From the NCBI GenBank assembly GCA_903887845.1, contig CAISRC010000136.1:1-57940 (forward strand): 57,940 nt of DNA, given 5' to 3'. Made by a program: the position numbers and the translations under genes. This stretch comes from an uncultured Chlorobiaceae bacterium (lineage in GTDB: Bacteria > Bacteroidota > Chlorobiia > Chlorobiales > Chlorobiaceae). Below the pieces are notes generated by a model that saw only the letters and a list, made by a program, of their open reading frames with translations, was not told the origin of the DNA and made no database searches. Every line of letters begins with the position of its first letter. Position 1 is the first letter of the stretch. Below, in pieces: positions 11,627 through 57,940 of this stretch.

Positions 11627-11629
11627 TGA

Positions 11630-11648: not shown

Positions 11649-11830
11649 TTGAAATTATGTATCAGCAGTTGTTTTATCAAAGCCACCATGATTACTCACG
11701 TGCGAAAAATTGCCAAGGCGGTCATGGGTATCTAGAAGGCGAAGGAAGTTAAGAAGGATGTTAGTTGGTTTGTGTAAAATAAGTTAAAGAATTAAATGTT
11801 TTAGTTACAATCAAATATATAAATCGAGAG

Positions 11831-12859
11831 ATGGAGGATGCTGGATATAAACAGGGTGATGCGATACGGTTTGTTCAAGTAAGCGAGCCACCTAATCTTC
11901 GTCAGTGTTTCGTTATAATGCCTTTGCACCAAGGGTTTGATGAAGTCTACCAGGACATTATTAAACCTACCGTTGGTAGTCTTGGTATCCACCCGGTACG
12001 AGCCGATGAGATTTATTCTCGAAACGCTATTATAGATGATATTTGGTCGCTCATTCAAAAATCGGCATGGATTATTGCCGACCTTACTGGGCGCAACCCT
12101 AACGTTTTTTACGAATTAGGATTGGCTCATGCTATAGGTAGAAATCCTATTCTAATTACTCAAGATATAAATGATGTTCCGTTCGATCTCCGCCATTGGC
12201 GTTGCATAGTCTACCAACAATCAATTCGTGGTGGTACACAATTGGCAGAAAATATAAAAAAAACAATTTCAGAGGATAGGCATTTTTATCGAGTTCCAAT
12301 GGACTATCTAATCGACAAGTTTTCCGGAGGATTTCATGTCGAAAAGACGGAATCTAAGGTTTTATTCGATGGTTATCGAGGTAAAATATCTCATTTTAAT
12401 GAGTTGTGGCGTAATCGATCTGAAGTTGTGAAAAACGATCTTTTTTATCGAAAGATCAGATCAGATGGTAGTTTAATCAATTATTCTGGTGACACTGTTG
12501 TCGTTGAGAAACGTATGTTTATGGAGGGTATGTATTTTCTTACAATTCATCTTGATCATACACTGAGGATAGGAGATACTTACGAATACAAGCTATACTA
12601 TGATATATGTGATGGATTTTCTCAGAAAGATGAGTATTGGAACTTTGATGTTGAAACAAATATTTCTGAGTTCATATATGAATTTGATTTCTCGGGAGCG
12701 ACTGATGTTGAATCATTCATAGCCATTAGGAAAGAAAAAAGGGATAGTGTTATTCAGACAGAATTACCTGTCAAACAAGATAAGAAGCGCTTTATAATTC
12801 GAGATTTTGATTTGAAAATTGGACAATCCATTCTGTTCAGGTGGACTTGGTGTGAATAA
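11831..12859 (+). CDS. Nucleoside 2-deoxyribosyltransferase-like / TIR-related protein with unknown C-terminal domain
   Basis: Residues ~20-155 match the TIR-related nucleoside deoxyribosyltransferase-like fold: RQCFVIMPLHQGFDEVY, then IIDDIWSLIQKSAWIIADL, then the signature TGRNPNVFYELGLAHAIG, then ILITQDINDVPFDLR. Proteins with this signature are common in antiphage loci, where they bind or cleave nucleotides such as NAD+ or act as the effector half of a sensor protein. Residues ~170-342 (DGYRGKISHFNELWRNR onward) are rich in beta strands and I do not recognise them. The gene lies between two paralogous NACHT genes on the same strand, 204 bases from the first and 100 bases from the second, and shares their low G+C. 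No clear ribosome site precedes the chosen ATG. Confidence 0.7.
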   Translation: MEDAGYKQGDAIRFVQVSEPPNLRQCFVIMPLHQGFDEVYQDIIKPTVGSLGIHPVRADEIYSRNAIIDDIWSLIQKSAWIIADLTGRNPNVFYELGLAHAIGRNPILITQDINDVPFDLRHWRCIVYQQSIRGGTQLAENIKKTISEDRHFYRVPMDYLIDKFSGGFHVEKTESKVLFDGYRGKISHFNELWRNRSEVVKNDLFYRKIRSDGSLINYSGDTVVVEKRMFMEGMYFLTIHLDHTLRIGDTYEYKLYYDICDGFSQKDEYWNFDVETNISEFIYEFDFSGATDVESFIAIRKEKRDSVIQTELPVKQDKKRFIIRDFDLKIGQSILFRWTWCE

Positions 12860-12959
12860 ATATTAATTCTATGCGTTAAATAGAGCTATACAAAATTCCA
12901 GTACGTCTAACGCATCACAACCAATTAAATTTTCCCAACATAATAGATATTAACCTCTT

Positions 12960-35750: not shown

Positions 35751-35822
35751 TCGTTTGATGGTTACTACACGTATTTGTGGCATCATCGCTGAATCCTTCA
35801 CAACTATTTGCCGAGAAAAAAA

Positions 35823-38800
35823 ATGAACAGGATATTCAACGTCATCTGGTCAACCGCAAAAGAGAAATGGGTTGTTGTTTCGGAAAAAGTTAAGTCGAAT
35901 GGAGGAGTTCCCAAATCTTCGCTTCTGAGCATTGCTGTTCTCTCTTCAATACTTGCTGTCGGGGTGCCAGCATACGCCGTTGATCCCGGTGAATTGCCTG
36001 CTGGCGGGCAGATAACTGCAGGTACCGGAAGTATCGGCGCCAGCGGTACCCGGATGACGGTGAACCAGTCGAGCCAGCAGATGATTGCAAACTGGAGCAG
36101 TTTCAACATCGGTACTGATGCAAGCGTCCAATTTTTTCAGCCCAATGTTTCGGCAACAGCGCTTAACCATATTTCTGATCAGAATCCCACTCAGATTCTT
36201 GGATCGCTTTCTGCTAACGGCAAGGTTTTTCTGCTCAATCAGTCCGGCATTATTTTCGGAAAAAATGCGCGTGTTGATGTTGGTGGTCTTGTAGCTTCCT
36301 CTCTTGATATGCTTGATAGCGACTTTCTTGCTGCCAGATACAAGTTTAACAATTCCGGTCATGCGGGGGAGATCTTTAACCAGGGCAGTATCAACGTTTT
36401 TCAGGGTGGCGTAGTAGCGCTGATTGGCCCGAAAGTCACCAACGAGGGTGCCATCAACGCTAATGGCGGCAGTGTTGCTATGGGTGCAGGGAACCAGGTC
36501 TCGCTTGATCTTAAGGGAGACGGACTTATCACGTTTACTGTTGATGAAGGTGCTGTCGATGCACTGGCAGAGAACAAAGGTCTTGTCAAGGCGGATGGCG
36601 GGCTGGTTGTGATGACCGCAAGGGCAGCCGACGTTCTGACGCAATCAGCGGTTAACAACAGCGGTATTGTACAAGCCCGCAGCATGGAGCAGAAAGATGG
36701 TCGCATACTGCTTGATGCCGTTGGCGGAATGACGACGGTCTCTGGTACGCTGGATGCATCTTCGACCGACGGCAAGGGAGGTCAGGTGGTGGCAACTGGT
36801 GACCGTGTTCTCGTGAAAGATGGTGCGCATCTGACTGCCTCCGGATTAACGGGTGGCGGGGAAGTGCTGGTTGGTGGTAACTGGCAGGGGAAGGATACCT
36901 CCATTCACCAGGCGACAGGAACAGTCGTTGAATCGGGTGCGCTGCTTGAAGCCAACGCTACCGACAACGGTAACGGTGGTACCGTTGTGGCATGGTCGGA
37001 CGTGACTAATCCGCTTTCGGTTACCCGTGCTTATGGTACATTTCAGGCCAAAGGTGGCCCAAATGGCGGTGATGGCGGACGGATTGAGACTTCAGGGCAT
37101 TGGCTGGATGTGGCGGGGATTTCGGTTTCGGCATCAAGCCTTGCCGGCGCCCCAGGCTTATGGCTGCTTGACCCGTGGAATGTCGAAATTGCAGCAACAC
37201 TTCCAATTTCTGGTACTCCTTATGCAGATACATTTGAAGCAACTGGAGATTCTGTTATTCTTGCCAGCGATATCCAAACATCCTTAAGCGGAAATATTTA
37301 TGTTTCAATCTCTACAGGCTCAGGCGGGACTCCTAATAGCGGCAATATCACCGTTAATGGTTCGATTTTTGCCTCTCCGACGACCATAGCATCGCTGACA
37401 CTTTCTGCTGCTAATAATATTATCATTCATGGAGGTATCGGGAATTCGAGTGGTGGCACGTTAAATCTGTTTCTCAATAGTGGTGTGGAAAGTGCCAACG
37501 GCAATATTAGTGGTGATGGAACACTTAATGTTTCAGGCGTGACCACTTTCAACACGATAAAAAACTCTGCTAGTGGAATTTATAGTGGCACCATCATTGG
37601 TTCTGGCAGTTTGGTGAAAACGGGGTTAGGCACATTGGAGCTCTCTGGAATGAACTCATATACTGGAAACACATCGATTATGGCTGGTGTTTTGCAGGTA
37701 AGTTCAATAGGAAATTCTGGTGTTTCAGGTAATTTGGGCACATCGGCCACATTTTCTATTGATGGTGGCACGCTGAGATATACTGGTGTGATTGCATCCA
37801 CAGATCGTAGTTTCTTTACATCATCTGTTGGGTCAACAATTGAAGTTGATAGCGGTGTTCAATTGACTATTTCTGGTACTCCAGGTGTTAATTCAACAGG
37901 CGGTTTGATAAAATCCGGAACAGGAACGTTGACTCTTTCGGGTTCGAATACATTACCTCTTGGATTATCAATTGATTCAGGCATACTCTCCCTTGGTTCA
38001 GCAAATGCAATCGGGACGACTGGACAGATAAGTTTCTTAAATACTGGGATTTTGCAGTTTACAAATTTGAATCAGTCAGATATATCTGCTCGTCTTAACA
38101 CTGCTAATAATCAAAAGTTTAAATTTGATACGAACGGTCAAAATGTGACCTTTGCAAATGCCATTATAAGTGGAAGTGGTGGCACGTTGCAAAAGTTTGG
38201 CGCCGGTACACTGACGCTTTTGGGGCTGAATAGTTATACGGGTTCGACGACAATAACTGCTGGTACTTTGACGATAGCTGGCACTGGTTCGTTGAATAGT
38301 GGCGCCTATGCAGGCGCCATAAGCAACAGTGGTGAGCTTGTTTTCAATACATCTCCAAATCAAATACTCTCGGGTCTTATAAGTGGCATCGGTGGTAATT
38401 TGACGCAGTCAGGTAGTGGCACGCTGACGCTGACGAATGCCAACAATACGTACACGGGAGTGACGACGATAACGAATGGTGTGCTGAGCGTTGGCACCAT
38501 AGGGAACGGAGGAGCGGCAAGTAATCTTGGTGCGGCGTCAGCAGGAGCATCAAATCTTGTTCTCGGTGGCGGCACGTTGCGATATACAGGCGCTACAGCC
38601 GCGACAGATCGTGCGTTCACCCTGACGAACAGCACGACATCCTTGATAGATGTGACGGCAAATAACCTGACGATATCGGGTTCAAGCGCTGCGACGTCAG
38701 GTAATTTGACAAAGGTTGGCATTGGCACCCTGACGTTGTCAGGTTCTAACAGCTATACCGGTTCGACGACCATAAGTGCCGGGACATTGACGATAGGTGG

Positions 38801-41800
38801 CTCTGGTTCGTTGGGTAGTGGTGCGTATGCAGGCGCCATAAGCAACAGTGGTGAGCTTGTTTTCAATACATCTGCAAATCAAACACTCTCGGGTCTTATA
38901 AGTGGCATCATCGGTAATTTGACGCAGTCAGGTAGTGGCACGCTGACGCTGACGAATGCCAACAATACATACACGGGAGTGACGACGATAACGAATGGTG
39001 TGCTGAGCGTTGGTACCATAGGGAACGGAGGAGCGGCAAGTAATCTTGGTGCGGCGTCAGCAGGAGCATCAAATCTTGTTCTCGGTGGCGGCACGTTGCG
39101 ATACACAGGCGCTACAGCCGCGACAGATCGTGCGTTCACCCTGACGAACAGCACGACATCCTTGGTAGATGTGACGGCAAACAACCTGACGATATCGGGT
39201 TCAAGCGCAGCAACGTCAGGTAATTTGACCAAGGCAGGCGCGGGCACCCTGACCTTGTCGGGCTCTAACAACTATACGGGTTCGACGACGATTAATGGTG
39301 GAGCCATAAGAGCATCCAGTAACACCGCTCTTGGCACAGTGTCTGGTGGTGTCACCGTAGCAAGTGGAGCAGCCCTTGAACTGGACAATAATGTAACGAT
39401 CGGAGCTGAGCAACTGACTCTTTCTGGTACCGGGATCGGTGGTGGAGGTGCATTGCGCAGTGTAAGCGGCAACAATACCTATCAGGGAGCGATAACTCTT
39501 GGTGCTGATACATACATTAATGCTGATGCAGCGACAACGCTCACGCTGACTAATACTATTAATGGTGCTTACGGTCTTTCGCTGAATGGTGGTGGGACTA
39601 TTACTTTAGGTGGTGCCGTAGGTGGCAGTACCCCGTTGACTTCACTCACCGGGAACGTGTCACTTCTGAATATCAACGGTGGAGTGGTGACAACCACAGG
39701 ATCGCAGACCTATAATGGGCGTACCGCTTTCACTTTTGCAGGAGTGACAACACTGGCAACAGTAAATAACAATATCATCGCTACGGCAACTGATGATGCA
39801 GGTAAAGTAACAGCAGTCAGTGGTAATACTTTGACCTTTAACACTGGCAGCGGCAATGTGACGTTTACCAACGTGTATAATGACTTCTCAACAGTAAATT
39901 TTACGAATGCAGGTGAGGTCTCTCTGGTGGATAGTAATCAGCTTACCATTTCAGGTATCAATGCAAGCGGCAAGATTGATGTGGCGACCATGGATAAGGA
40001 CCTGACTGTTTCAGGCAATATTCATACTGACTATACTGGGGATAATATTTCTGATTTCGCAATTACGTTGAACGCTGGCAAGGTCTGGAATGCAGGCACC
40101 TCTTCAGGTGGTGATATTATCGTTGTCGACAACGGTGGTTCTTCTCCTGCGATTAGTTCTGGAGGTTTTGCCAGGTTTTATACTGGCAGCGTATCCGGTA
40201 GTGGAAAAGGTAGTGCTGGCAGTAGATCATTTTCAGGAGTTATATCAAGTGGCCGTTTCCGGTATAACAGCGATGAGCAGCCGAATCCAAACTACACGAA
40301 AGAACTGGAGTCAGGTCTGAACGCTATCTATCGCGAGCAGGTAAAAATAACAGTCAATCCAAATTCTCAAACCATTGAGTATGGGCAGCCAACTCCATCA
40401 TTTACCGCTGTCTATAGTCCCTTCGCAAACGGCGATGACAATACAACGATTTCCGGGTCAGCAGCTTGGGAAGTTGGTGGCCTTCAATCCAGTTCTTCTC
40501 ATGATATTGCTGGCCTGCATGATGTAAGCTATACGGGAGGACTTAAAAGCAGTCTGGGTTATGAAATTATCAATAACGCAAGTAGCATCAATGAACTGAC
40601 AATCACGCAAAGGACTCTGTCGTTGAACCTGCTGGTGGCTGAAAGCAAGTCATACGACGGTAAAACTATAGCGAAAATTTTAGACTACGGTGTTCTGCAA
40701 ACTGTGGAAAGTCCTGATCATGTGTCTCTATATACCAATGATTCTTCAGCCAATTTCAACAATAAAAACGCTGGTACGGGCAAAACAGTAACAGTCAGTG
40801 GTCTTGCCTTGAGTGGCGATGATAGTGGGAACTACAAGATCGCAGACCAGACGACGACAGCAAATATAAGTAAAATTACCCTTTTGCTGGATGGTTTACA
40901 GGTAGACAATAAGCCGTACGATGGAACAGTGAGTGTACAGCCAAATACAATCCATTACTCAAGCGTGAGTAATATTGTGCCAGGGGAATCCATAACACCA
41001 ATCCTTACAGGTACGTTTGATACTAAAGATGCAGGCACGAATAAAACTGTTACAGTCTCTTTAGGTTTAAGTGTTTCCGACGAAATTAACTATGTCTTTC
41101 AACCAAACACTTCTCCAGTTCATGCTGACATTATACCAGCATCCCTGACAGTTTCAGCTAATGATGCTATAAAATTTGCGAATCGCTCTCCTTATAGTGG
41201 CGGCAATGGAGTTGTCTTCCATGGTTTTGTGCCTGGTGAGAACATCAGTAATTCAAATCTTTCCGGTACTCTTGAGTATTCTGGCTCATCGCAGGGAGCG
41301 TTGGAAAGTGGGATGTACGTGATTACTCCGGGAGGCTATAGCTCATCTAATTATCACATTACCTATGCAGATGGCCAACTGACCATTATATCATCGGTAC
41401 CAACGCCTCCCGAATGGTTTCTTTCGAGCCCCCCTTCTTCTCCACCTGCAACGCTGGTTGAGGTTAATGTAGGTGGCAAAACACAGAGTAATGAAAGGGG
41501 TTTGCCCGATTTGACATCTATGGAAGCACTCTCAGGAAATGCACCACAAGAAACCAGGGTATTCATGCCCGAAGAGTTTGTCAGATCCAGTTCGTCTTTT
41601 ATTTTTCCGCTGCCTGAAAACGTGCACAGTCAATTATTGACATCCATGGGGCCTGAAAATGTTTTTCTTCAGGATGAATCACCTCTTCCGGGCTGGTTAA
41701 AGTATGATGTGGAAAATAAGGTTTTCAGGGCTACTGATGTCCCTCCTGGAGCGATTCCTGTAACGGTTCTTGTAAAACAGGGCAATTTGAGTTGGAGAGT

Positions 41801-41816
41801 TGTTATTGTACAGTAA
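35823..41816 (+). CDS. TpsA giant exoprotein / filamentous-haemagglutinin-like adhesin with MBG and YDG domains
   Basis: A 1997-aa exported protein. The start is the ATG of MNRIFNVIWSTAKEKWVVVS, an extended-signal-peptide region; the hydrophobic core then reads LLSIAVLSSILAVGVPAYA. Residues ~50-330 are the TPS secretion domain (haemagglutination-activity type), with NQSSQQMIANWSSFNIG and VFLLNQSGIIFGKNARVDVG. Residues ~530-1280 are autotransporter-associated beta-strand repeats (GTLTLSGSNSYTGSTTI), including a near-exact 173-residue duplication. Residues ~1490-1860 hold MBG-like (TIEYGQPTPSF) and YDG-type (ESKSYDGKTIAKI) surface domains. The last ~100 residues, with EEFVRSSSSFIFPLPENV, form a tail I cannot assign. 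It is secreted by the upstream TpsB and likely mediates surface attachment or aggregation. Confidence 0.88.
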   Translation: MNRIFNVIWSTAKEKWVVVSEKVKSNGGVPKSSLLSIAVLSSILAVGVPAYAVDPGELPAGGQITAGTGSIGASGTRMTVNQSSQQMIANWSSFNIGTDASVQFFQPNVSATALNHISDQNPTQILGSLSANGKVFLLNQSGIIFGKNARVDVGGLVASSLDMLDSDFLAARYKFNNSGHAGEIFNQGSINVFQGGVVALIGPKVTNEGAINANGGSVAMGAGNQVSLDLKGDGLITFTVDEGAVDALAENKGLVKADGGLVVMTARAADVLTQSAVNNSGIVQARSMEQKDGRILLDAVGGMTTVSGTLDASSTDGKGGQVVATGDRVLVKDGAHLTASGLTGGGEVLVGGNWQGKDTSIHQATGTVVESGALLEANATDNGNGGTVVAWSDVTNPLSVTRAYGTFQAKGGPNGGDGGRIETSGHWLDVAGISVSASSLAGAPGLWLLDPWNVEIAATLPISGTPYADTFEATGDSVILASDIQTSLSGNIYVSISTGSGGTPNSGNITVNGSIFASPTTIASLTLSAANNIIIHGGIGNSSGGTLNLFLNSGVESANGNISGDGTLNVSGVTTFNTIKNSASGIYSGTIIGSGSLVKTGLGTLELSGMNSYTGNTSIMAGVLQVSSIGNSGVSGNLGTSATFSIDGGTLRYTGVIASTDRSFFTSSVGSTIEVDSGVQLTISGTPGVNSTGGLIKSGTGTLTLSGSNTLPLGLSIDSGILSLGSANAIGTTGQISFLNTGILQFTNLNQSDISARLNTANNQKFKFDTNGQNVTFANAIISGSGGTLQKFGAGTLTLLGLNSYTGSTTITAGTLTIAGTGSLNSGAYAGAISNSGELVFNTSPNQILSGLISGIGGNLTQSGSGTLTLTNANNTYTGVTTITNGVLSVGTIGNGGAASNLGAASAGASNLVLGGGTLRYTGATAATDRAFTLTNSTTSLIDVTANNLTISGSSAATSGNLTKVGIGTLTLSGSNSYTGSTTISAGTLTIGGSGSLGSGAYAGAISNSGELVFNTSANQTLSGLISGIIGNLTQSGSGTLTLTNANNTYTGVTTITNGVLSVGTIGNGGAASNLGAASAGASNLVLGGGTLRYTGATAATDRAFTLTNSTTSLVDVTANNLTISGSSAATSGNLTKAGAGTLTLSGSNNYTGSTTINGGAIRASSNTALGTVSGGVTVASGAALELDNNVTIGAEQLTLSGTGIGGGGALRSVSGNNTYQGAITLGADTYINADAATTLTLTNTINGAYGLSLNGGGTITLGGAVGGSTPLTSLTGNVSLLNINGGVVTTTGSQTYNGRTAFTFAGVTTLATVNNNIIATATDDAGKVTAVSGNTLTFNTGSGNVTFTNVYNDFSTVNFTNAGEVSLVDSNQLTISGINASGKIDVATMDKDLTVSGNIHTDYTGDNISDFAITLNAGKVWNAGTSSGGDIIVVDNGGSSPAISSGGFARFYTGSVSGSGKGSAGSRSFSGVISSGRFRYNSDEQPNPNYTKELESGLNAIYREQVKITVNPNSQTIEYGQPTPSFTAVYSPFANGDDNTTISGSAAWEVGGLQSSSSHDIAGLHDVSYTGGLKSSLGYEIINNASSINELTITQRTLSLNLLVAESKSYDGKTIAKILDYGVLQTVESPDHVSLYTNDSSANFNNKNAGTGKTVTVSGLALSGDDSGNYKIADQTTTANISKITLLLDGLQVDNKPYDGTVSVQPNTIHYSSVSNIVPGESITPILTGTFDTKDAGTNKTVTVSLGLSVSDEINYVFQPNTSPVHADIIPASLTVSANDAIKFANRSPYSGGNGVVFHGFVPGENISNSNLSGTLEYSGSSQGALESGMYVITPGGYSSSNYHITYADGQLTIISSVPTPPEWFLSSPPSSPPATLVEVNVGGKTQSNERGLPDLTSMEALSGNAPQETRVFMPEEFVRSSSSFIFPLPENVHSQLLTSMGPENVFLQDESPLPGWLKYDVENKVFRATDVPPGAIPVTVLVKQGNLSWRVVIVQ
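38192..39290 (+). repeat. 519-bp in-frame tandem repeat inside tpsA (about 2.1 copies)
   Basis: GACGCAGTCAGGTAGTGGC occurs at 38402 and 38921, exactly 519 bp (173 codons) apart, and long stretches are identical between the copies. A third, partial unit begins near 39228 (AAGGCAGGCGCGGGCACCCT). Such repeats change copy number by recombination, so the adhesin's length may vary between strains. The repeat also creates long antisense open frames that are artefacts. Confidence 0.92.
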
Positions 41817-48440: not shown

Positions 48441-50114
48441 ATGCCAAAGCGTTCGCTAAAAAAAATAGATACTTCTATTTCAATCAATGAAATGCACCGG
48501 ATTATTCATGAATTGTCGGTCAGTCAGATTAAACTTGAAATGCAGAAGGAAGAATTGCTTCAATCAAGGGAGGATTTAGAAAAGGGTCTCGAGCGCTACA
48601 CTGAGCTTTATGACTTTGCTCCGCTGGGCCATTTTACTCTTGCCTGTGATGGCACAATACTCGACGTAAACCTTACCGGTACGAAAATGCTTGGTATTGA
48701 TCGAGAGGTATTGATAGGCTCTCGTTTTGGAATGTTTGTTGTCCGTGACGATATAACGGTTTTTAATGCTCTGATAGAGAGAGTATTCAACCAAAGGGAG
48801 CCCGGCTATTGTGAGGTTAGGCTTTTGAATGATCAGGAACCTTTGACACACCGACTTACGGTACACATTGATGCCGTTGTTACCAATGATGGACAGGAGT
48901 GTTGGGTTGTTCTTTCTGATATTACAAGGCAGAAGCTGATCGAACAGGAGAATACATCACTTCAGCTCAGTATGGTTCAAGCCAGGAAGATGGAGTCAAT
49001 CGAGAGGCTGGCGGGGAGTGTTGCGCATGATTTCAACAATATGCTTCAGGTAATGCTTGGTAATATTGATCTTTTGATGTCTACGGAGGAACTCAAAAAC
49101 AATACAAGGGAGACTCTTTCCGATCTGCGGAATTCCGTTCTTCAATCCACGGGGCTTACATATCAACTGCTTACTATCGCCCGCAAGCAGAGTATCAATC
49201 CTAGGACGGTTAATTTCAATGCGGCAATTGCCAATATGCTCTCTATGTTCAGAGAGCTGCTGGGCGAAAATATCAACCTGATTTATACTCCGGGCGATAA
49301 TCTTTGGCCGGTAAGGATGGATTTATCGCAAATTGAACAGATTATGACCAATCTTGCAAGAAACTCAAGGGATGCTATTCAGGGAGTTGGAACACTCTCT
49401 ATCCAGACCCATAATGTAACTGTTGATGCTGCATTTTGTAACGCTCATCCTTACACAGTGCAAGGTGATTATGTTTTACTTGTGGTGCATGATGATGGAT
49501 GCGGTATGGACAAGGATACCCTTGATTCTGTTTTCGAACCATTTTTTACTACAAAATCCATGGACTCCGGTGCAGGTCTTGGACTTGCCACGGTTTATGG
49601 GATTGTTCGGCAGAACAGAGGTACCATAAATGTTTTCAGCCAAAAAGGAACCGGTACGACGTTTGAGATTTATTTGCCTCGCAGTGTCGGTGAAGAGACT
49701 CCTCTTCAATCAAATAGAGGAAATGAAACGTCATCCGGTGGCGATGAAACAATTTTGCTGGTTGAGGATGAGGAGTCCGTGAGGAATGTGGCCAGAGCAT
49801 TTCTGGAAAGTTTCGGCTACACTGTATTGACGGCTGAATCAACAGCAGTGGCCCTTTCTCTTTCTGAGGCATATCTGGACACTATTCAATTACTTATTAC
49901 CGATATGATAATGCCGGGCATGAGCGGCAGGCATCTTGCATTGCAGTTGGCAAAGAGACGTCCGGATCTCAGAAACCTCTTTATTTCAGGGTACTCAAGC
50001 GACTCTTTTGAACTCGAAAAAGAGTCAGGTATTTACATGCCGTTTCTTGGCAAGCCTTTCTCCCGCATTGAACTTGCTCATAAAGTAAGAGAAATTCTGG
50101 ATGGTGTTGTTTAA
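48441..50114 (+). CDS. Hybrid sensor histidine kinase: PAS, HisKA, HATPase, receiver
   Basis: A 557-aa soluble hybrid kinase. An N-terminal coiled coil (LEMQKEELLQSREDLEKGLE) leads to a PAS domain at ~45-165 (LYDFAPLGHFTLACDGTILD). The dimerisation/phosphoacceptor helix has SVAHDFNNMLQ with H196. The ATPase domain has N-box NLARNSRDAI, G1 VHDDGCGMDKD and G2 GAGLGLATVYGIV at ~290-415. The C-terminal receiver (~435-557) starts ILLVEDEESVRNVA and has phosphoacceptor D488 in LLITDMIMPGMSG, with K at the LGKPFSRIEL end. There are no membrane helices, so it senses an internal signal. The receiver may pass phosphate on or give feedback; no separate output regulator is adjacent. It converges with flxA, 4 bases apart. 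Confidence 0.92.
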   Translation: MPKRSLKKIDTSISINEMHRIIHELSVSQIKLEMQKEELLQSREDLEKGLERYTELYDFAPLGHFTLACDGTILDVNLTGTKMLGIDREVLIGSRFGMFVVRDDITVFNALIERVFNQREPGYCEVRLLNDQEPLTHRLTVHIDAVVTNDGQECWVVLSDITRQKLIEQENTSLQLSMVQARKMESIERLAGSVAHDFNNMLQVMLGNIDLLMSTEELKNNTRETLSDLRNSVLQSTGLTYQLLTIARKQSINPRTVNFNAAIANMLSMFRELLGENINLIYTPGDNLWPVRMDLSQIEQIMTNLARNSRDAIQGVGTLSIQTHNVTVDAAFCNAHPYTVQGDYVLLVVHDDGCGMDKDTLDSVFEPFFTTKSMDSGAGLGLATVYGIVRQNRGTINVFSQKGTGTTFEIYLPRSVGEETPLQSNRGNETSSGGDETILLVEDEESVRNVARAFLESFGYTVLTAESTAVALSLSEAYLDTIQLLITDMIMPGMSGRHLALQLAKRRPDLRNLFISGYSSDSFELEKESGIYMPFLGKPFSRIELAHKVREILDGVV

Positions 50115-50118
50115 CGCA

Positions 50119-50985
50119 TTATAAATCGGCAGCGGGCATACAGGAGACCTCGGCTGCGGTGAAGACCGGTCCCTCCTTGCAGACATAGACCGAGCCGACA
50201 TTGCAGCGTCCGCATTTACCGACCCCGCATTTCATACGGTTTTCAAGCGTTGTGTAGACATTTTGTTCTTCAAAACCAAGCTTTTTGAGTGAAATCAGGG
50301 TGAATTTGATCATGATCGGCGGTCCGCAGATGACGGCTATGCAATTTTCGGGAGAAGGTGCGATATCTTCAAGTACAGTGGGTACGAAGCCGACCTTATT
50401 TTTCCAGTCTGGCGATTCTCCACCCGGATCAACGGTGAGGACGAGATCGACATCAGCGCGATTCTGCCACTCTTCCAGCTCATGCTTGTAAACGAGATCA
50501 GCCACAGTTCGGGCCCCATAGACAATAGTAACTTTGCCGAATTTTTCACGCTGGTCAAGGCATGACCAGATAACGCTTCGTGTCGGCGGCAAAGCTATAC
50601 CTCCCGAAACAAAAAGGAGATTCTTGCCCTGGAAATTTTCAATGGGGAAGCGGTTCCCGTATGGACCACGGAAGGTGATAAGGTCGCCAATATCCGCGTC
50701 CGCCAGAGCAGAAGTCACCCGTCCGGATTGGCGGAAGGTGCATTCGATATACTCCTTGCGGGTTTCAGGACTGGCTACGCAGAACGTACTCTCTCCTTCG
50801 CCATAGACACCATAAAGTCCAAACATACCTGTTCGGAAGTTATTTTTGAACTGCTCATGGTCGTCTGGGTCCTGAAATTCAAGCTTCAAGGTTTTCACTC
50901 CTGGCGCTTCGTCGTGACGTCCGACGATTTTCATGATGGCAGGTTTGTAGATGTTATTATGCACGCTTTGGATGTTTTCGGTCAC
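50119..50985 (-). CDS. flxA: FlxA-like FAD/NAD(P)H-binding electron-transfer subunit
   Basis: A 288-aa protein related to ferredoxin-NADP reductase and hydrogenase gamma subunits. The FAD-binding region has FRQSGRVTSALADADIGDLI and FRGPYGNRFPIENFQGKNLL; the NAD-binding region has FVSGGIALPPTRSVIWSCLD and CGPPIMIKFTLISLKKLGF. The C-terminal cysteine cluster (CGVGKCGRCNVGSVYVC) binds a [2Fe-2S] centre as in PyrK. In the Flx-Hdr complex described in Desulfovibrio this subunit takes electrons from NADH. It is the last gene of a six-gene minus-strand operon, overlapping flxB by 4 bases. The nitrogen-terminal sugar-phosphate-like region is absent; length is normal. Confidence 0.82.
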   Translation of the reverse strand: MTENIQSVHNNIYKPAIMKIVGRHDEAPGVKTLKLEFQDPDDHEQFKNNFRTGMFGLYGVYGEGESTFCVASPETRKEYIECTFRQSGRVTSALADADIGDLITFRGPYGNRFPIENFQGKNLLFVSGGIALPPTRSVIWSCLDQREKFGKVTIVYGARTVADLVYKHELEEWQNRADVDLVLTVDPGGESPDWKNKVGFVPTVLEDIAPSPENCIAVICGPPIMIKFTLISLKKLGFEEQNVYTTLENRMKCGVGKCGRCNVGSVYVCKEGPVFTAAEVSCMPAADL

Positions 50986-51995
50986 GAATGTAATGTTGAT
51001 ATTTTTTGTAACGTCTCAGTAATACCCATGTCAACCGGGCATTGGCGCGAGCATCGGCCACATCCGCTGCAACTGTTAACGCTGAACTTGCCCGGGAAAT
51101 AGTTGAATTTGTGCATGATGCGCTGCCGCCACCGTGCAGATTGAGTCGAGCGGGGGTTATGGCCTGAAGTGTGCATTGTAAAGAGCGCAAAAGAGCAACT
51201 ATCCCAGTTTTTTCTTCTGATGCCGCTATAGGTATCACCTTCATCCTGGATGTCAAAGCAATGACAGGTCGGGCAGAGATAGGTACAGGAGCCGCAACCG
51301 ATACAACGCATTGAAATATCTTTCCAGAATTTGCTTTCAAAGTTTTCAGGGTTCTGCAGCCATGCAACGCAAGTGTCAAGATCAAACATTTCCGGTACAA
51401 CCGCCATCGGTGCCGTGGGTTCAGATCCCTCCTGCAGGAATTCTTCTATGGCCAATAACGCTTCGCGACCCCGATCCGTAAGCTCTTCAGCATGCCATCC
51501 GTTATTATTTTCCAGTGGTCGAAGCAGAATATCAGAGCCTGTCGTACTGTCAGGTGCAAGTTTGAGCGACGTGCATAGACAGAAATCATCAGCTTTCGTG
51601 CATGCAATGGTGACAATAACCGAATTATTGCGGCGCTGAAACCAGTATTCATCCTTGTAATCCCATCCGAAAAGGGGGTCGTCAATAGACAATCCTGCTG
51701 CATCGCAAGGCCTGACGCCAAAAATTAATTTTTTTCCCGAAGGCGGAGTGAAATCTTCGGTGTTGATTGACTGCTGTTTTAACGTGTAACGCAGCATCGG
51801 TTCAGTTTGCGGAAAAAAGAGTTCCTTGAGTGAGCGATCGGGCAGCACAATCCCCAAATCAAAATCTGAAGCATGTTCAACTGCGGTATAACTCGAAAAA
51901 GCGTCTTTTGTTACAGGTCCGATCACCGTGAAGCCTGCAGATTGCCATCGCGTGACACAATTATCAAGTTTATCGCTGAAAAGAATTCTTGTCAT
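50982..51995 (-). CDS. flxB: FlxB-like [4Fe-4S] subunit (hydrogenase beta-subunit type)
   Basis: A 337-aa iron-sulfur protein of the hydrogenase/sulfur-reductase beta-subunit kind. The N-terminal half includes KKLIFGVRPCDAAGLSIDDP and SVIVTIACTKADDFCLCTSL. Two [4Fe-4S] motifs follow near the C-terminus: MRCIGCGSCTYLCPTCHCFD and NSCSGCGRCSRQCPVDMGIT. It links the flavin subunit to the other iron-sulfur subunits. The B versus C naming of the two ferredoxin-like subunits is by position and tentative. It overlaps flxA by 4 bases and starts 13 bases after the flxC stop. Confidence 0.78.
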   Translation of the reverse strand: MTRILFSDKLDNCVTRWQSAGFTVIGPVTKDAFSSYTAVEHASDFDLGIVLPDRSLKELFFPQTEPMLRYTLKQQSINTEDFTPPSGKKLIFGVRPCDAAGLSIDDPLFGWDYKDEYWFQRRNNSVIVTIACTKADDFCLCTSLKLAPDSTTGSDILLRPLENNNGWHAEELTDRGREALLAIEEFLQEGSEPTAPMAVVPEMFDLDTCVAWLQNPENFESKFWKDISMRCIGCGSCTYLCPTCHCFDIQDEGDTYSGIRRKNWDSCSFALFTMHTSGHNPRSTQSARWRQRIMHKFNYFPGKFSVNSCSGCGRCSRQCPVDMGITETLQKISTLHS

Positions 51996-52008
51996 ACGTG
52001 TGAATTAC

Positions 52009-52839
52009 TTAGAGAATGAATGTCTCGGAATCTTCCTTTTTGAAACTTGCAAGCACCGGTTCCTGAGTGGTGCTCATACCGGCAAAATGATTGAATGACC
52101 CAAGCACCTCCTCTGACATTTTGGCGTTGATAAGGCGAAGCGGAATATTGACGGGACAGGATCGGTCGCAGTTGCCGCATCCAACGCAACGCCCGGCCAG
52201 ATGAAATGCCCTGACAATATTCCATTCGAAGTTGCCAAGGGTGTGCGATGAGGTATTGACCCATTGCGGCTGATTACTGTCGACAACACATCGGCGGCAG
52301 TAGCACATAGGGCAGGATTGACGACAGGCATAGCATTTGATGCACCGGGAAAACTCCTCCTTCCAGAATGCAAAGCGCTCCTGTGGGTTCATCTGCTCAA
52401 GCTGGTACAAGAGCGGCTCTCTGCTTTTTTCAGGAGGATTCTCTTTTATTGAGCCGATAAATTCTGAAAACTCATCGGCATGTTCACCCGGCAGCGAATT
52501 GACCTCTCTGCCGATCGAATCGAAGCCGAAAATGATGATCTGGTCAACATTGAGCTGCGATTCTGCTGCAAGGATATTAAGAGAACGAATTCCTTCGGGT
52601 CGAAGAAAGATGGCGACACGTTTTTCATCACTCAGAAGCCCTTCTGTCACCAGATAACCAGATAAATTCGCGATACAGTTGCTGTCGAGTACAAGCTGGT
52701 CAGCCTCTTCGAATGAACGGATAAAAAGCGGGCGACGCCGGTCAGCAGTTGAGCCCGGACTGTAACCGATTACCATTTTTACGGAACCATCGGCAAGAAG
52801 TTTTTTGACTTTGCTTCTGTATTTTTCCTGTGTAATCAT
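52009..52839 (-). CDS. flxC: FlxC-like iron-sulfur subunit
   Basis: A 276-aa protein. The N-terminal domain (LADGSVKMVIGYSPGSTADR, then VAIFLRPEGIRSLNILAAES and QIIIFGFDSIGREV) resembles coenzyme F420 hydrogenase beta-like or FrhB-type folds. Two [4Fe-4S] motifs follow: FSRCIKCYACRQSCPMCYCR, with extra cysteines (RRCVVD), and GRCVGCGNCDRSCPVNIPLR. It probably wires electrons between FlxA/B and HdrA. The FlxC name is assigned from gene order and the family layout. It is followed on the minus strand by flxB after 13 bases. Confidence 0.75.
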   Translation of the reverse strand: MITQEKYRSKVKKLLADGSVKMVIGYSPGSTADRRRPLFIRSFEEADQLVLDSNCIANLSGYLVTEGLLSDEKRVAIFLRPEGIRSLNILAAESQLNVDQIIIFGFDSIGREVNSLPGEHADEFSEFIGSIKENPPEKSREPLLYQLEQMNPQERFAFWKEEFSRCIKCYACRQSCPMCYCRRCVVDSNQPQWVNTSSHTLGNFEWNIVRAFHLAGRCVGCGNCDRSCPVNIPLRLINAKMSEEVLGSFNHFAGMSTTQEPVLASFKKEDSETFIL

Positions 52840-52852
52840 TGGCTTGTTGTTA

Positions 52853-53305
52853 TTAAAGTGTCGCTGGGGCTTCAGTTTCCCTGATCAGCTCTTTGTATTG
52901 ATCAAAAGGACCAAGCTTGCGGATATCTTCAGTGACGTTGTTAATAAGATCAGCAAATTTGCCTCCTTCAGCAGCACTGATCCAGGAGAACTTAACTCGT
53001 TCTGTTGATATGCCCATAAAGTCGAGAAGGGAACGAAAAACCATCCATCTCCGTCGTGCATGGTAGTTGCCATGTGTAAAATGGCAATCTCCGGGGTGAC
53101 ATCCACTTATCAATATACCGTCAGCACCTTTCTGAAGAGCTTTAAGGATAAACATGGGGCTTATTCTGCCAGTACAGGGAAGACGGATAAGACGCACATT
53201 CGGCGCATATTTCAGTCGGCTCGTCCCCGCAAGGTCAGCACCGGCATACGTACAGTAGGTGCAGACAAACGCAATAATTTTTGGTTCAAACGTTTCACTC
53301 ATCAT
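52853..53305 (-). CDS. flxD: FlxD / MvhD-type adaptor subunit
   Basis: A 150-aa protein of the methyl-viologen-reducing hydrogenase delta-subunit family. It shows IIAFVCTYCTYAGADLAGTS, then RLIRLPCTGRISPMFILKAL, then GADGILISGCHPGDCHFTHG. The cysteines of these three motifs bind a [2Fe-2S] cluster. In Mvh-Hdr and Flx-Hdr complexes this subunit docks the electron-input module onto HdrA. Here it sits directly between hdrA (upstream) and flxC (downstream), as expected for its role. Confidence 0.9.
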   Translation of the reverse strand: MMSETFEPKIIAFVCTYCTYAGADLAGTSRLKYAPNVRLIRLPCTGRISPMFILKALQKGADGILISGCHPGDCHFTHGNYHARRRWMVFRSLLDFMGISTERVKFSWISAAEGGKFADLINNVTEDIRKLGPFDQYKELIRETEAPATL

Positions 53306-53354
53306 CGTACTCCAGAGGCAAAGTTCGGTTCATTCACGATAAAAATTAAAAGCA

Positions 53355-55325
53355 TCAGAGAGCCATCATTTCAGCAAAGATCTGTTTTTCGGTAAAGCCT
53401 GCCAGGTCGATACTGTTCGATCGACAGAAGGTGACACAGGTGCCGCAGCCCTGACACAAGCCTGGATTTACAGATGCCACCGATTTGATAATTCGTCCGG
53501 AACGGTCGAGAATATCTTTCTGTTCAATGGCGTTGTATGGACAGGCGAGAACGCAGCCCCAGCATCCGGCACAAGTCGCTTCGTTTGTTGAGGCAACGAC
53601 CGGTTCCCGTTCCAGTGTTTCCTTGCTGAAAAGAGCAAGAACCTTGCTTGCCGATGCTGACGCCTGCGCAATCGAGTCTGGAATATCTTTCGGTGACTGG
53701 CATGCACCGGCAAGGAATATACCCGCCGAAGATGATTCAACAGGCCTGAGCTTGAGATGAGCCTCGTTGTAGTAGCCGTATTCGTCGTAAGCGATGCCGA
53801 TGGTTTTGGCAAACTCTATTGCATTTGGCTGGGGAACCATCGCAGTAGCAAGAACAACCATGTCGGCGGGTATGGTAACTGGTCTGCCGAGGAGCGTATC
53901 AACACCCCGTACCATCAGTTTACCATTTTCCAGCCATACCTTGCTGACCCGACCCCTGACATAAGAAGCATCATCTTCCTCAATGGTTCTTCGGGTAAAT
54001 TCATCATACCCTTTGCCGGCTGCCCGGATATCCATATAAAACACATGCGATTTTCCGTGATGAACCTTATGAGCATAAAGCATAGCATGTTTTGCTGTGT
54101 ACATGCAGCATATTTTGGAGCAGTAGCGCACACCCTTTGAAGGGTCCCGCGATCCGGCACATTGGATAAATACCACAGTTTCCGGCTCTTTGCCATCTGA
54201 GGGGCGAAGAATCTTGCCTGAGGTCGGGCCGCTTGCTGTAGCGAGGCGCTCAAATTGAAGGCCAGTGATGACGTCAGGATACTTGCCATAGCCATACTCT
54301 CCGTACCCTGCCGTATTCTGTATCTGAAATCCGGTGGCAACAACAATGGCGCCGATTTCAAGGTCAATGAATTCGTCCTGCATATCAAAGTTGATGGCAT
54401 TGATCTGACAGGACTTCATGCATGTTTTGCATTTGCCATTTTTGAAGTAGATACAGCTTGCCTTGTCGATGACTGGAATATTTGGTACAGACTGGGCAAA
54501 CGGAGTATAAATGGCGGTTCTTTTCCCCAGGCCGCAGTCAAATTCACTCGATATTTTTTTGACAGGACATTTTACCATGCAATCGCCACAGCCAGTACAG
54601 ACGTCTCTGTTGACATAACGCGATTTCATGCGAATCTTTACCTTGAAATTGCCTATGAAGCCATCAACATGCTCAACTTCAGCATAGGTGAGCAGGCGGA
54701 TTTTGGGGTGTTGAGCAACCTCAACCATTCGCGGGGTCAAAATACACTGTGAGCAGTCGAGTGTCGGGAATGTTTCCGATAACTGCGACATGTGGCCTCC
54801 AAGAGAGGGCTCACGCTCGACAAGAACAACTTCCTGACCGGCATTGGCAATATCAAGTGCTGCCTGTATACCAGCCACTCCTCCTCCTATAACCAGCGCC
54901 CGGCGGGTTACAGGAACCTCGATAGGCTGGAGTTTGTTATTACGTTTAACTTTTTCAATCATCGAACGAGTGATGTCCATGGCTTTTTCAGTGGCCATAT
55001 CCTTGTCGGTATGAACCCATGAACATTGTTCGCGAATGTTTGCTATTTCACAGAGATAGGGGTTCAGGCCCGCTTCAGCGCATACCTTGCGGAAAGTAGC
55101 TTCATGCATTCTCGGGGAGCATGCGGCTATAATGACACCTGTAAGGTTATTATCGCGAATGGCTTTTTTGACACTTTCCTGACCAGGCTCTGAGCAAAAA
55201 TATTTGTATTCAACAGAAACCGCAACTCCAGGGTGTTCTCCTATAGCGGCAGCAAGTTTGGTACAATCAACCTTTGATGCAATATTTTCACCGCAATGAC
55301 ATATAAATACTCCAATCTTTGCCAT
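53355..55325 (-). CDS. hdrA: HdrA-type FAD/[4Fe-4S] electron-bifurcating subunit
   Basis: A 656-aa HdrA. The N-terminal domain (IGVFICHCGENIASKVDCTK) is followed by the FAD Rossmann motif VIGGGVAGIQAALDIANAGQ (G147-G149) and the characteristic SLGGHMSQLSETFPTLDCSQ. A [4Fe-4S] motif is CTGCGDCMVKCPVKKISSEF, and the C-terminal pair is CAGCWGCVLACPYNAIEQKD and CQGCGTCVTFCRSNSIDLAG. HdrA is the flavin subunit that splits electron pairs between a low-potential carrier and a disulfide. It has no FrhB or selenocysteine features. It lies second in the operon, after hdrCB. Confidence 0.93.
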   Translation of the reverse strand: MAKIGVFICHCGENIASKVDCTKLAAAIGEHPGVAVSVEYKYFCSEPGQESVKKAIRDNNLTGVIIAACSPRMHEATFRKVCAEAGLNPYLCEIANIREQCSWVHTDKDMATEKAMDITRSMIEKVKRNNKLQPIEVPVTRRALVIGGGVAGIQAALDIANAGQEVVLVEREPSLGGHMSQLSETFPTLDCSQCILTPRMVEVAQHPKIRLLTYAEVEHVDGFIGNFKVKIRMKSRYVNRDVCTGCGDCMVKCPVKKISSEFDCGLGKRTAIYTPFAQSVPNIPVIDKASCIYFKNGKCKTCMKSCQINAINFDMQDEFIDLEIGAIVVATGFQIQNTAGYGEYGYGKYPDVITGLQFERLATASGPTSGKILRPSDGKEPETVVFIQCAGSRDPSKGVRYCSKICCMYTAKHAMLYAHKVHHGKSHVFYMDIRAAGKGYDEFTRRTIEEDDASYVRGRVSKVWLENGKLMVRGVDTLLGRPVTIPADMVVLATAMVPQPNAIEFAKTIGIAYDEYGYYNEAHLKLRPVESSSAGIFLAGACQSPKDIPDSIAQASASASKVLALFSKETLEREPVVASTNEATCAGCWGCVLACPYNAIEQKDILDRSGRIIKSVASVNPGLCQGCGTCVTFCRSNSIDLAGFTEKQIFAEMMAL

Positions 55326-55419
55326 AATTCAATCGTTTAGTATAAAACTGCTGACCGGAACAGCTCATCGAATGAGCCGAAAACAATGCGTCTTGTTATT
55401 TCAAATGTTTGATCGTAGT

Positions 55420-56928
55420 CTAAAGTTTCGATACAAGGTCAAGTGCAGGAACAAAATGTTCTCCCACAGCGACTTCAGATGGTGTTGCACCGCAAGCAAT
55501 GGCGACAAGCTCAGAAATATAATAGACCGGCATCGGTTTAATGTCCCCGAACCGCTTTCTCATGCTGCCCTGACGCATGTCAAGGTTGGCCTGGCAAAGA
55601 GGACATGCGACCACAAAAGCATCAGCTCCGTTGTCAGCAGCATTTTTTGCTATGGAGTGCGTAAGCTCTTCAACAAGGGGCTGTTGTGCAAGTGTTAGTC
55701 CTGCTCCGCAGCACTCAATCTTGAATGCCCAATCAACTGGTTTTGCTCCAAGAGCACTCATTATTGCCTCCATTTTGAGCGGATTTTCAGGATCGTCGAA
55801 ACCCATATCGTCCATCGGGCGCACCAAAAGACAGCCATAATAGCAGGCGAGATTAAGTCCGGTTAGAGGTTTTTTTACCCTTTTTTTGATCTCCTCCGGA
55901 TCCATTGCCTCAAGAAGTTGGGTAACACCAATAAATTCAGCAGTACAGGTTGGCTTTATACCGGTAATCGATAGGACTTCCTCGCGAAGTTCTGGCGAAG
56001 CCATCAGGGCTTTTTTTGTGGTGACCTGGCGGTTCTGGCAAGCCGCGCAGGGAGCCAGAACCAGTGTCAATCCCTGAGCGTCAGCAAGCGCCTGATTCCT
56101 CGCGGGCAAAAGCAGTGCCAGTTTGTGATTGGTGGCATGTGCCGATGTGGCTCCACAACAGTTCCAGTCCTCAATTTCCTGAAGTTTCAGGCCGAGAAGG
56201 GAACACATTTTTTTGACTGAAATATCATATTCTCGTGCCGTACCGCTCAGTGAGCATCCAGGATAGTATCCGATGGTCATACCCGGCTTGATTGAATAAG
56301 GGGTCTTTGGTATGAAATCTTTTTTTGTTGGATATCGTTTTGGCGCCGACAAGTGAGAATGATGTTCGGAAGCCGCAAAAATTTTCGCAATCTGATCTTT
56401 TCCTTTTACGCCACCTTTTCCCGTCAAAGCGTGTAATGGTTTGATCTTGCCGCTCATGATCATTTTTACGCCTGAATCTGAATCCTGAAGATAAGATCTT
56501 GTGCGGAGCTTATAGCTGCTGACAAGTGAAAGTTCTTCCAGACGACCATGTTTGCGGACGTTTTTGAGAAATGAGAAATGAAAAGCAGTAACCAGCTTCT
56601 TGGCTTTGCTTTCTGATACCATGCCCTTTTCGAGGGCAAGAGATCTGAGCGAGTCCATGGTTGCGGCGATATCCATGTTCTGAGGACATCGCGCAGTGCA
56701 GGTCATACAGCCGACACAGAACCAAAGCGCTTCGCTTTTCAGAGCCTCTTCAACATAGCCAGCCTGGACGAGACGCATGATCCGTGCAGGCGGGCTATCC
56801 ATGAATGCGCCTGAAGGGCAGCCAGCCGTACATTTACCGCACTGGTAGCAGCAGTTGTAATCGTTGCCAGTGGATTCCTCAAGCCGATGCTTGAGAGCAT
56901 CAGTTACTTTTATTTGGGTTTTTGACAC
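55420..56928 (-). CDS. hdrCB: Fused HdrC-HdrB disulfide reductase subunit
   Basis: A 502-aa fusion. The HdrC part (residues ~1-190) has two [4Fe-4S] motifs, CCYQCGKCTAGCP (C27, C30, C33, C37) and CVGCMTCTARCPQ (C71, C74, C77, C81). The HdrB part (~215-490) has two cysteine-rich CCG domains: YYPGCSLSGTA ... DWNCCGATSAH ... LAPCAACQNR and ACYYGCLLVRP ... IECCGAGLTLAQQ ... VVACPLCQANLDMR. These ligate the non-cubane clusters that reduce a disulfide. In most Flx-Hdr operons as I recall them HdrB and HdrC are separate genes; here one protein carries both. It is the first gene of the operon, so its upstream 433-base gap should hold the promoter. DsrC disulfide is a plausible partner, which is inference. 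Confidence 0.88.
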   Translation of the reverse strand: MSKTQIKVTDALKHRLEESTGNDYNCCYQCGKCTAGCPSGAFMDSPPARIMRLVQAGYVEEALKSEALWFCVGCMTCTARCPQNMDIAATMDSLRSLALEKGMVSESKAKKLVTAFHFSFLKNVRKHGRLEELSLVSSYKLRTRSYLQDSDSGVKMIMSGKIKPLHALTGKGGVKGKDQIAKIFAASEHHSHLSAPKRYPTKKDFIPKTPYSIKPGMTIGYYPGCSLSGTAREYDISVKKMCSLLGLKLQEIEDWNCCGATSAHATNHKLALLLPARNQALADAQGLTLVLAPCAACQNRQVTTKKALMASPELREEVLSITGIKPTCTAEFIGVTQLLEAMDPEEIKKRVKKPLTGLNLACYYGCLLVRPMDDMGFDDPENPLKMEAIMSALGAKPVDWAFKIECCGAGLTLAQQPLVEELTHSIAKNAADNGADAFVVACPLCQANLDMRQGSMRKRFGDIKPMPVYYISELVAIACGATPSEVAVGEHFVPALDLVSKL

Positions 56929-57361
56929 GTGGTATATGCTTTTACTTGGAGCGGGAAGTGAAATAATACCTACAAATATGTTAATTAAAAAAATGTTAAT
57001 GTCAAATTAATGAAGCCTCATTCCTATGTCAAATGCAGAGAAACGGCATAAGCGTATGTGGTAATCAATTACGCATCATAAAAGTGGCATAAAGTATTTA
57101 ATAAAAGTATTTTACGGGATGCTTTCGGGATTTGGCCTTTTTCAGACATTATCTAAATAACACCTATTATGATTAAAGCGTTCAATGCGATGATTGTAAA
57201 TGTGCTTGTATGAAGTATCCGGGCAATTCTGTTGTCTTCATTATGTAAACAAGAAATGATCTGGAAAATATGGGGAAGGCCATTGATATGATGCTCTTTT
57301 TTCTTATGATAAAAACTATTTTCTTTTTCTTTATGATGAATGATTGTTTTGTTCCGAGATT
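56929..57361. other. Divergent intergenic region, no gene seen
   Basis: A 433-base A+T-rich gap between the divergent hdrCB operon and the aminotransferase gene. It must hold both promoters. I see no strong hairpin, repeat or protein-like frame in it. Confidence 0.5.
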
Positions 57362-57940
57362 ATGTTTGATGAAATAGAGTTTGACAAGATCAAGCGACTT
57401 CCAAAGTATGTCTTTGCTGCTGTTAATGAGCTGAAAATGGCTGAACGGCGCGCAGGAGAGGATGTTATCGATTTTTCAATGGGTAATCCTGATGGTCCTA
57501 CACCCCAGCATATTGTTGATAAACTGATCGAAAGTATCAATAAACCCCGAACCCACGGATATTCAGTCTCAAAGGGGATCTACAAACTGCGCGGTGCGGT
57601 AGGTACCTGGTATAAGCGCAAGTACAATGTCGATCTTGATCTGGATCGCGAGGTTGTGGCGACAATGGGATCCAAAGAGGGTTATGTGCATCTGGTTCAG
57701 GCGATTACCAATCCAGGAGACCTTGCCATGGTGCCGGATCCCTGTTATCCCATCCATTCCCAGGCATTCATCCTTGCTGGAGGAAATGTCCATCGCCTCA
57801 AGCTCGAACTGAACGATGATTTTACTCTTGACGAAGAGGGCTTTTTCCAGAACATTGAAAAAGCGCTCCGCGAATCATCGCCAAAGCCAAAGTATCTGGT
57901 GGTAAATTTTCCGAATAATCCTACCACAGCTACCGTTGAG
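57362..57940 (+). CDS. alaC: AlaC-like pyridoxal-phosphate aminotransferase (partial, runs off the window)
   Basis: The first 193 codons of a class I/II aminotransferase, open to the last base. It reads FDKIKRLPKYVFAAVNELKM, then GEDVIDFSMGNPDGPTPQHI, then RTHGYSVSKGIYKLRGAVGT, then TMGSKEGYVHLVQAITNPGD and VNFPNNPTTATVE, which tracks E. coli AlaC (glutamate-pyruvate aminotransferase) block for block. The NPTTATVE segment precedes the region with the catalytic lysine, which lies beyond the end. It would make alanine from pyruvate and glutamate; LL-diaminopimelate aminotransferase is the main alternative in this fold group. It is divergent from the hdr/flx operon. Confidence 0.82.
   Translation, partial: MFDEIEFDKIKRLPKYVFAAVNELKMAERRAGEDVIDFSMGNPDGPTPQHIVDKLIESINKPRTHGYSVSKGIYKLRGAVGTWYKRKYNVDLDLDREVVATMGSKEGYVHLVQAITNPGDLAMVPDPCYPIHSQAFILAGGNVHRLKLELNDDFTLDEEGFFQNIEKALRESSPKPKYLVVNFPNNPTTATVE

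Follow-up and report, generated by a model that had tools for sequence, protein, structure and literature searches.

The FlxABCD-HdrABC complex of Desulfovibrio vulgaris is reportedly described in Ramos et al. 2015, and Flx-Hdr complexes are usually interpreted through DsrC and sulfate reduction. Methanogens contain the MvhADG-HdrABC complex and related assemblies (5odc, 7bkb, 8rvu). We analyzed a Chlorobiaceae counterpart of these systems that occupies positions 50119-56928 of contig CAISRC010000136.1, of which the whole 57,940-nucleotide (nt) stretch is referred to below as the window. With the methanogen complexes, this operon shares a full-length HdrA, HdrB CCG pairs, HdrC clusters and an MvhD/FlxD subunit; it differs in that FlxA, FlxB and FlxC take the place of the hydrogenase or formate module, and the heterodisulfide of coenzymes M and B (CoM-S-S-CoB) is not expected in this organism. 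With the D. vulgaris system it shares the gene set and the predicted coupling of NADH, ferredoxin and a disulfide. Unlike that system, it has HdrC and HdrB fused, its closest kin among the loci compared are dsr-free Bacteroidota, Spirochaetota and Planctomycetota, and DsrC is dispensable across the clade.

The locus holds a genuine Flx-Hdr operon that is both complete and conserved, and its HdrC-HdrB fusion looks lineage-specific. From the comparisons described below, we consider it probable that this complete FlxABCD-HdrABC is a soluble and reversible core enzyme that bifurcates electrons between NAD(H), ferredoxin and a disulfide, and that its thiol partner is independent of Dsr. The ORF list (ORF, open reading frame) contains six frames in this interval, in the order hdrCB-hdrA-flxD-flxC-flxB-flxA:

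55420-56928, minus strand: hdrCB, 502 residues, GTG start; HdrC at about residues 1-190 and HdrB at about residues 216-502
53355-55325, minus strand: hdrA, 656 residues; predicted FAD and multi-[4Fe-4S] bifurcating subunit
52853-53305, minus strand: flxD, 150 residues; MvhD/FlpD-type [2Fe-2S] linker (PF02662, E 1.9e-52; 5odc_D, E 1.6e-44)
52009-52839, minus strand: flxC, 276 residues; two-[4Fe-4S] ferredoxin-like protein, CX2CX2CX3C at residues 166 and 218
50982-51995, minus strand: flxB, 337 residues; sulfhydrogenase-beta/AsrA-like protein with two [4Fe-4S] clusters, motifs at residues 231 and 309
50119-50985, minus strand: flxA, 288 residues; FAD/NAD(P)H-binding [2Fe-2S] diaphorase subunit (PF00175 and PF10418)

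Gene content and conservation of the operon

Along the operon the intergenic spacing is 94, 49, 13 and 13 nt, and the last pair of genes overlaps by 4 nt. Subunits were identified from profile matches and from the solved chains of methanogen HdrA, HdrB, HdrC and MvhD and of the archaeal sulfhydrogenase gamma subunit. FlxA contains the NAD(P)-binding and Fe-S domains of a FlxABCD-HdrABC diaphorase and matches the archaeal sulfhydrogenase gamma chain 9nez_C (E 2.7e-53); FlxB matches PF17179 (E 9e-32) and a sulfhydrogenase beta profile (E 5.7e-40), and the matches of FlxC to Fer4 and AsrA are weak. HdrA, HdrB and HdrC all score below the cut-offs of their NCBIfam equivalog models, which look methanogen-centred.

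Full-length HdrCB is encoded by all 25 genus genomes (70-100% identity); it was found in none of 16 further genomes drawn from elsewhere in the order and phylum. HdrA has the same distribution, except that in the single genus genome without it (G004) the contig stops just after hdrCB. In 22 of the 25 genomes all six genes follow one another in this order, and in the other three the operon runs off a contig end, so the arrangement is not due to chance. The adjacency of flxABCD and hdrABC seen in the window and in these 22 genomes recurs in many loci outside the family. Together, the profiles, the solved structures and the shared gene order bear out the gene names and the single operon of the original prediction. 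Its assignment of the host to the green sulfur bacteria likewise holds, as the nearest named HdrCB records among the matches listed are from Chlorobiaceae (94% identity); that the host is a phototroph follows from this placement.

Relatives were also collected by scanning 84,980 species, one genome per species, with two short peptide patterns, and the best 80 of 563 relatives were retained; statements below on loci outside Chlorobiaceae apply to the loci listed. In a tree of HdrA from 47 of these 80 loci plus the window, with branch support from the Shimodaira-Hasegawa-like approximate likelihood ratio test (SH-aLRT) alone, the nearest outside clade comprises 10 loci (8 Bacteroidota, 1 Spirochaetota, 1 Planctomycetota) and joins Chlorobiaceae with an SH-aLRT value of 93. 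The sole Desulfobacterales HdrA in the tree is separate from that of Chlorobiaceae. Bacteroidales operons (L091, L096, L114, L116, L120 and others) have the same hdrC-hdrB-hdrA-flxD-flxC-flxB-flxA order, with HdrA about 63-65% and FlxA about 59-64% identical to the Chlorobiaceae proteins; their hdrC and hdrB are separate genes, nearly abutting in several loci, and neither DsrC nor BshA was detected in their genomes.

Catalytic residues and type of HdrA

The residues expected of a bifurcating Hdr complex are retained throughout the genus. HdrC contains two invariant CX2CX2CX3CP motifs. The HdrB portion has the two CCG motifs that bind non-cubane clusters in FlxABCD-HdrABC, and both (C225-X31-C257C258-X35-C294XXC297 and C366-X39-C406C407-X34-C442XXC445) are present in 25 of 25 genomes. 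For all six proteins, the cluster-motif cysteines are invariant in every row that covers them (up to 25 genomes), including those from genomes without dsr.

Both inserted and C-terminal ferredoxin domains are present in the full-length HdrA, which aligns with 5odc_A over residues 3-653 (E 8.8e-203). According to the available text of PMC12054007, the E356/K409 pair of Methanothermococcus thermolithotrophicus HdrA marks a bifurcating HdrA. In the 5odc_A alignment, the counterparts of this pair in the window protein are E359 and K412, which are kept in 24 of 24 genomes. The protein thus combines the FAD domain, the Fe-S domains and the E/K pair near flavin N5 that characterize bifurcating-type HdrA.

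The operon is retained under equal constraint in genomes without Dsr

DsrC was found in 14 of the 25 genus genomes, and DsrA was over the cut-off in the same 14. The other 11 (G006, G007, G012-G017, G020, G021 and G023) have neither protein; 8 of these 11 are at least 90% complete. HdrCB is present in all 11 and has lost no catalytic cysteine. We compared median pairwise ratios of nonsynonymous to synonymous substitution (dN/dS) among dsr-less and among dsr-bearing genomes, using pairs with dS of 0.1-1.8 and coverage above 90% and dropping the remainder. The medians were similar for the HdrB portion (dsr-less = 0.054; dsr-bearing = 0.048), the HdrC portion (0.086; 0.087), hdrA (0.043; 0.046) and flxA (0.044; 0.048), indicating that selection on the operon is unrelaxed in dsr-less genomes. 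Mapped on the operon tree, presence or absence of dsr requires a minimum of 7 changes among the 25 genomes (shuffled mean, 8.4) and 5 among the 19 genomes that are at least 90% complete. Gene content, gene order, the fusion, motif integrity, conservation and Dsr-independence were all obtained directly. Species lacking Dsr still have the operon intact, which makes it improbable that DsrC is the usual partner.

Several points weigh against our main reading. The dsr changes were counted on the tree of the operon itself, and gain of dsr by transfer could imitate loss; in addition, the dN/dS pairs are not independent and most of the genomes are draft assemblies. Because the two genes dsrC and dsrA are adjacent, the loss of a single contig from an assembly could take out the pair, yet 8 of the 11 genomes are at least 90% complete. 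DsrC is reported to bind FlxABCD-HdrABC in D. vulgaris (Ferreira et al. 2023, as cited in the available text of PMC10504309). An Nfn-type NfnA homologue is present in 24 of the 25 genus genomes and could share the coupling of NADH and ferredoxin, and the direction of flow in the light, discussed below, is one that we only infer.

A single-chain HdrC-HdrB subunit

The original prediction described HdrC and HdrB as one 502-residue chain, and this is what we found: a single ORF with both portions matched. An AlphaFold2 model of HdrCB (mean predicted local distance difference test score, pLDDT, 85.4; predicted template modelling score, pTM, 0.88) is weak in the linker at about residues 190-210. 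The modelled HdrB portion superimposes on 5odc_B (Z 34.3, 1.8 A, 284 residues) and the HdrC portion on 5odh_I (Z 12.4, 4.1 A, 153 residues), in a VIA/Foldseek comparison that speaks solely for the families in its listing. Separate HdrB and HdrC subunits are the usual state of FlxABCD-HdrABC and no defining catalytic feature; as all catalytic features are in place, we treat the fused chain as a variant.

Using fusions called from stop-to-stop frames, we observed a one-ORF HdrC-HdrB in every one of the 16 Chlorobiaceae loci and in none of the 64 others among the best 80 of 563 relatives, a count that leaves room for fusions elsewhere. The fusion therefore looks lineage-specific to Chlorobiaceae, and its recurrence in every Chlorobiaceae locus rules out an assembly artefact. 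Outside the family, hdrC is followed directly by hdrB, and the two genes almost abut in several loci, so the fusion is easily explained. A recruited HdrD was also ruled out: the two portions of HdrCB are 35-49% identical to the corresponding stand-alone subunits encoded in Flx-Hdr operons, compared to 11-17% for single-chain relatives in the PDB, and the chain looks like a fresh fusion. These single-chain relatives include 3kwl of H. pylori, whose HdrC-like domain also precedes the CCG domains (359 residues aligned, Z 25.5), and mycobacterial EtfD (9ojn), in which HdrC-like and then CCG domains likewise lie on one chain. HdrD and GlpC-like proteins are single-chain HdrC-HdrB proteins as well. 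The literature passages covered, which do not include Ramos et al. 2015 or Ferreira et al. 2023, describe neither a fused HdrBC with flx nor a Chlorobi flxABCD operon.

Coupling of NADH and ferredoxin, and proposed electron flow

No NuoF/RnfC-type protein (PF01512) was found in 21 of the 25 genus genomes, including that of the window, so that hardly any further NADH dehydrogenase of this type is left. A Complex1_51K protein of about RnfC size (441-residue frame) occurs within the genus only in the deep-branching G001, G004, G011 and G022. Chlorobium tepidum is named among Nfn carriers in the available text of PMC6085437, and the presence of NfnA in 24 of 25 genomes rules out Flx-Hdr as the sole NADH-ferredoxin link. 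What distinguishes Flx-Hdr from an Nfn-type link is its predicted disulfide site. The earlier proposal that a bifurcating Flx-Hdr complex could balance ferredoxin and NADH holds in principle: the operon is complete and the bifurcation residues are kept.

What follows on electron flow, on the way it runs and on the kind of partner is inferred throughout. NAD(H) would meet FlxA (FAD, [2Fe-2S]), from which FlxB, FlxC and FlxD would pass electrons on to the HdrA flavin. This flavin would split the electron pair, sending one electron to ferredoxin via the HdrA clusters and the second, by way of both HdrC clusters, to the non-cubane cluster pair of HdrB, the predicted site of disulfide reduction. 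The fusion would presumably lock the HdrC:HdrB stoichiometry. Every step is expected to be reversible. Textbook potentials are about -320 mV for NADH, -400 to -500 mV for ferredoxin and -140 to -280 mV for thiols; with these values the reaction should be near reversible, and its direction should track the ferredoxin state. In the light, when the reaction center supplies reduced ferredoxin, the expected flow would be the confurcating reverse, with electrons from ferredoxin and thiol reducing NAD+; forward flow would be expected in the dark. The disulfide partner should be one that Chlorobiaceae contain with or without Dsr, with DsrC as no more than an additional partner in certain species.

Candidate disulfide partners

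One tentative proposal, to which we assign a low probability, is that the complex acts as an N-methyl-bacillithiol (N-Me-BSH) disulfide reductase, keeping the main low-molecular-weight thiol pool in green sulfur bacteria reduced, or drawing electrons from it, in a reaction coupled to NADH and ferredoxin. BshA exceeded the cut-off in every one of the 25 genus genomes, including all 11 without dsr, and Hiras et al. reported N-Me-BSH from each of the Chlorobiaceae that they examined (available text of PMC6282198). The known bacillithiol disulfide reductase, YpdA/Bdr, was over the cut-off in 0 of 25 genus genomes, compared to 4 of the 16 order and phylum relatives, none of which has full-length HdrCB. 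These three observations make N-Me-BSH disulfide a candidate for this lineage. However, 12 of the 16 relatives have neither YpdA over the cut-off nor Flx-Hdr, and thioredoxin-like or other reductases may serve instead. We further compared 32 outside carriers, which are all the non-Chlorobiaceae loci among the 80 with flxA on the stretch (32 others without flxA were excluded), using E cut-offs of 1e-70 for BshA and 1e-60 for YpdA, at which divergent forms could be missed. BshA was found in 3 of the 32 and in 0 of the 10 genomes of the sister clade, and YpdA in 0 of the 32. Bacillithiol is thus neither the ancestral nor the universal partner, and the family as a whole must use another.

A stronger form of this proposal, which we regard as rather doubtful, is that Flx-Hdr is a light-poised thiol hub that replaces YpdA/Bdr for N-methyl-bacillithiol disulfide, with light-driven reverse flow merging electrons from ferredoxin and thiol into NADH. 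If that were true, half of those NADH electrons would skip the second photochemical step.

It is unlikely that Flx-Hdr instead trades electrons with DsrC (trisulfide/disulfide) and so ties sulfur oxidation to NADH and ferredoxin. The window's own genome contains DsrC with both C-terminal cysteines, dsrA, and dsrB-like and dsrL-like genes, so that an optional DsrC contact may occur in this species. Also in favour are the presence of dsrC and dsrA in 14 of 25 genomes and the contact reported in D. vulgaris. The 11 genomes that hold the operon at unchanged constraint without DsrC or DsrA argue otherwise, as does the separation of Chlorobiaceae HdrA from that of Desulfobacterales. DsrC is present in 9 of the 32 outside carriers and missing from 23, including all 10 genomes of the nearest outside HdrA clade; 22 of the 32 have neither DsrC nor BshA. 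DsrC thus accompanies the complex in only part of the genomes (14/25 in the genus, 9/32 outside), whereas a DsrC-dependent Flx-Hdr would be expected to have it in all. A flx-hdr carrier without DsrC has already been reported, for which an unknown carrier was inferred (available text of PMC6687939). From these comparisons, balance of NADH and ferredoxin would remain the broad frame for the role of Flx-Hdr, and the earlier suggestion of DsrC-linked sulfur oxidation appears to fail as a general role.

Quite improbable is a partner in the reductive tricarboxylic acid (rTCA) cycle, whereby the Flx-Hdr thiol, or HdrB itself, would feed an SdhABE-type fumarate reductase and ferredoxin would feed 2-oxoglutarate synthase. 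The window's own genome encodes a succinate dehydrogenase/fumarate reductase of the SdhA-SdhB-SdhE type whose SdhE resembles HdrB (L036, 5358-8976), and such a match occurs in 22 of 25 genomes, which makes an rTCA link possible but without support from gene linkage: the operon neighbours a hybrid kinase and an LL-diaminopimelate aminotransferase, and SdhE-like matches also occur in G026 and G029, both of which lack Flx-Hdr. Endoriftia and related tubeworm symbionts, which are sulfur-oxidizing rTCA autotrophs, have Hdr-Flx within rTCA gene clusters (available text of PMC6315080 and PMC11636981), whereas the Chlorobiaceae operon stands alone.

The sHdr enzymes of sulfur oxidation have a short HdrA without inserted or C-terminal ferredoxin domains, LbpA nearby and no Flx. 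Although this is a sulfur phototroph with Hdr genes, and G026 of a related family has a short-HdrA cluster beside a GcvH/LbpA-like gene, an sHdr-type identity is ruled out, to a negligible residual probability, by the 656-residue HdrA with both ferredoxin domains and by the presence of flxABCD; the G026 HdrA has just 353 residues and aligns to residues 144-244 and 322-553. Both genomes of that family (f3; G026 and G029) lack Flx-Hdr and carry a short HdrA of about 355-370 residues. In the 3.29-Mb single-contig genome G026, it lies with HdrC, HdrB and the GcvH/LbpA-like protein at L037 5169-8971, which we take to be the layout of a sulfur-oxidizing sHdr.

Other genes in the window

A PAS hybrid histidine kinase gene (48441-50114) converges on flxA; of 24 fetched loci, 6 have a homologue (57-60% identity) close to the operon. 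Upstream of the operon is the divergent LL-diaminopimelate aminotransferase gene (57344-57940), present in 22 of the 24 fetched loci. Positions 6111-17408 encode a caspase-like peptidase (PF00656) and, after it, a tandem pair of proteins, each about 1,490 residues long, with HATPase, DUF4062, NACHT and FGE-sulfatase domains; with the helicase and Eco57I-type methylase beside them (13-4586), these genes resemble a defence island. A two-partner secretion (TPS) pair at 34020-41816 consists of an ShlB/FhaC-type transporter and a 2,002-residue TPS exoprotein with PATR, YDG and MBG repeats. An Rfam scan of the window gave no match, and ARAGORN found no tRNA in it.

Implications

In this phototroph family Dsr comes and goes while the Flx-Hdr complex stays, and this turnover beside a stable complex makes the identity of the disulfide partner a testable question, for which HdrCB offers a handy single-chain catalytic unit for biochemistry. 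If the complex does couple NADH, photosynthetic ferredoxin and a thiol pool, it would contribute to redox balancing in an rTCA phototroph for which 21 of 25 genomes lack a NuoF/RnfC-type NADH module.

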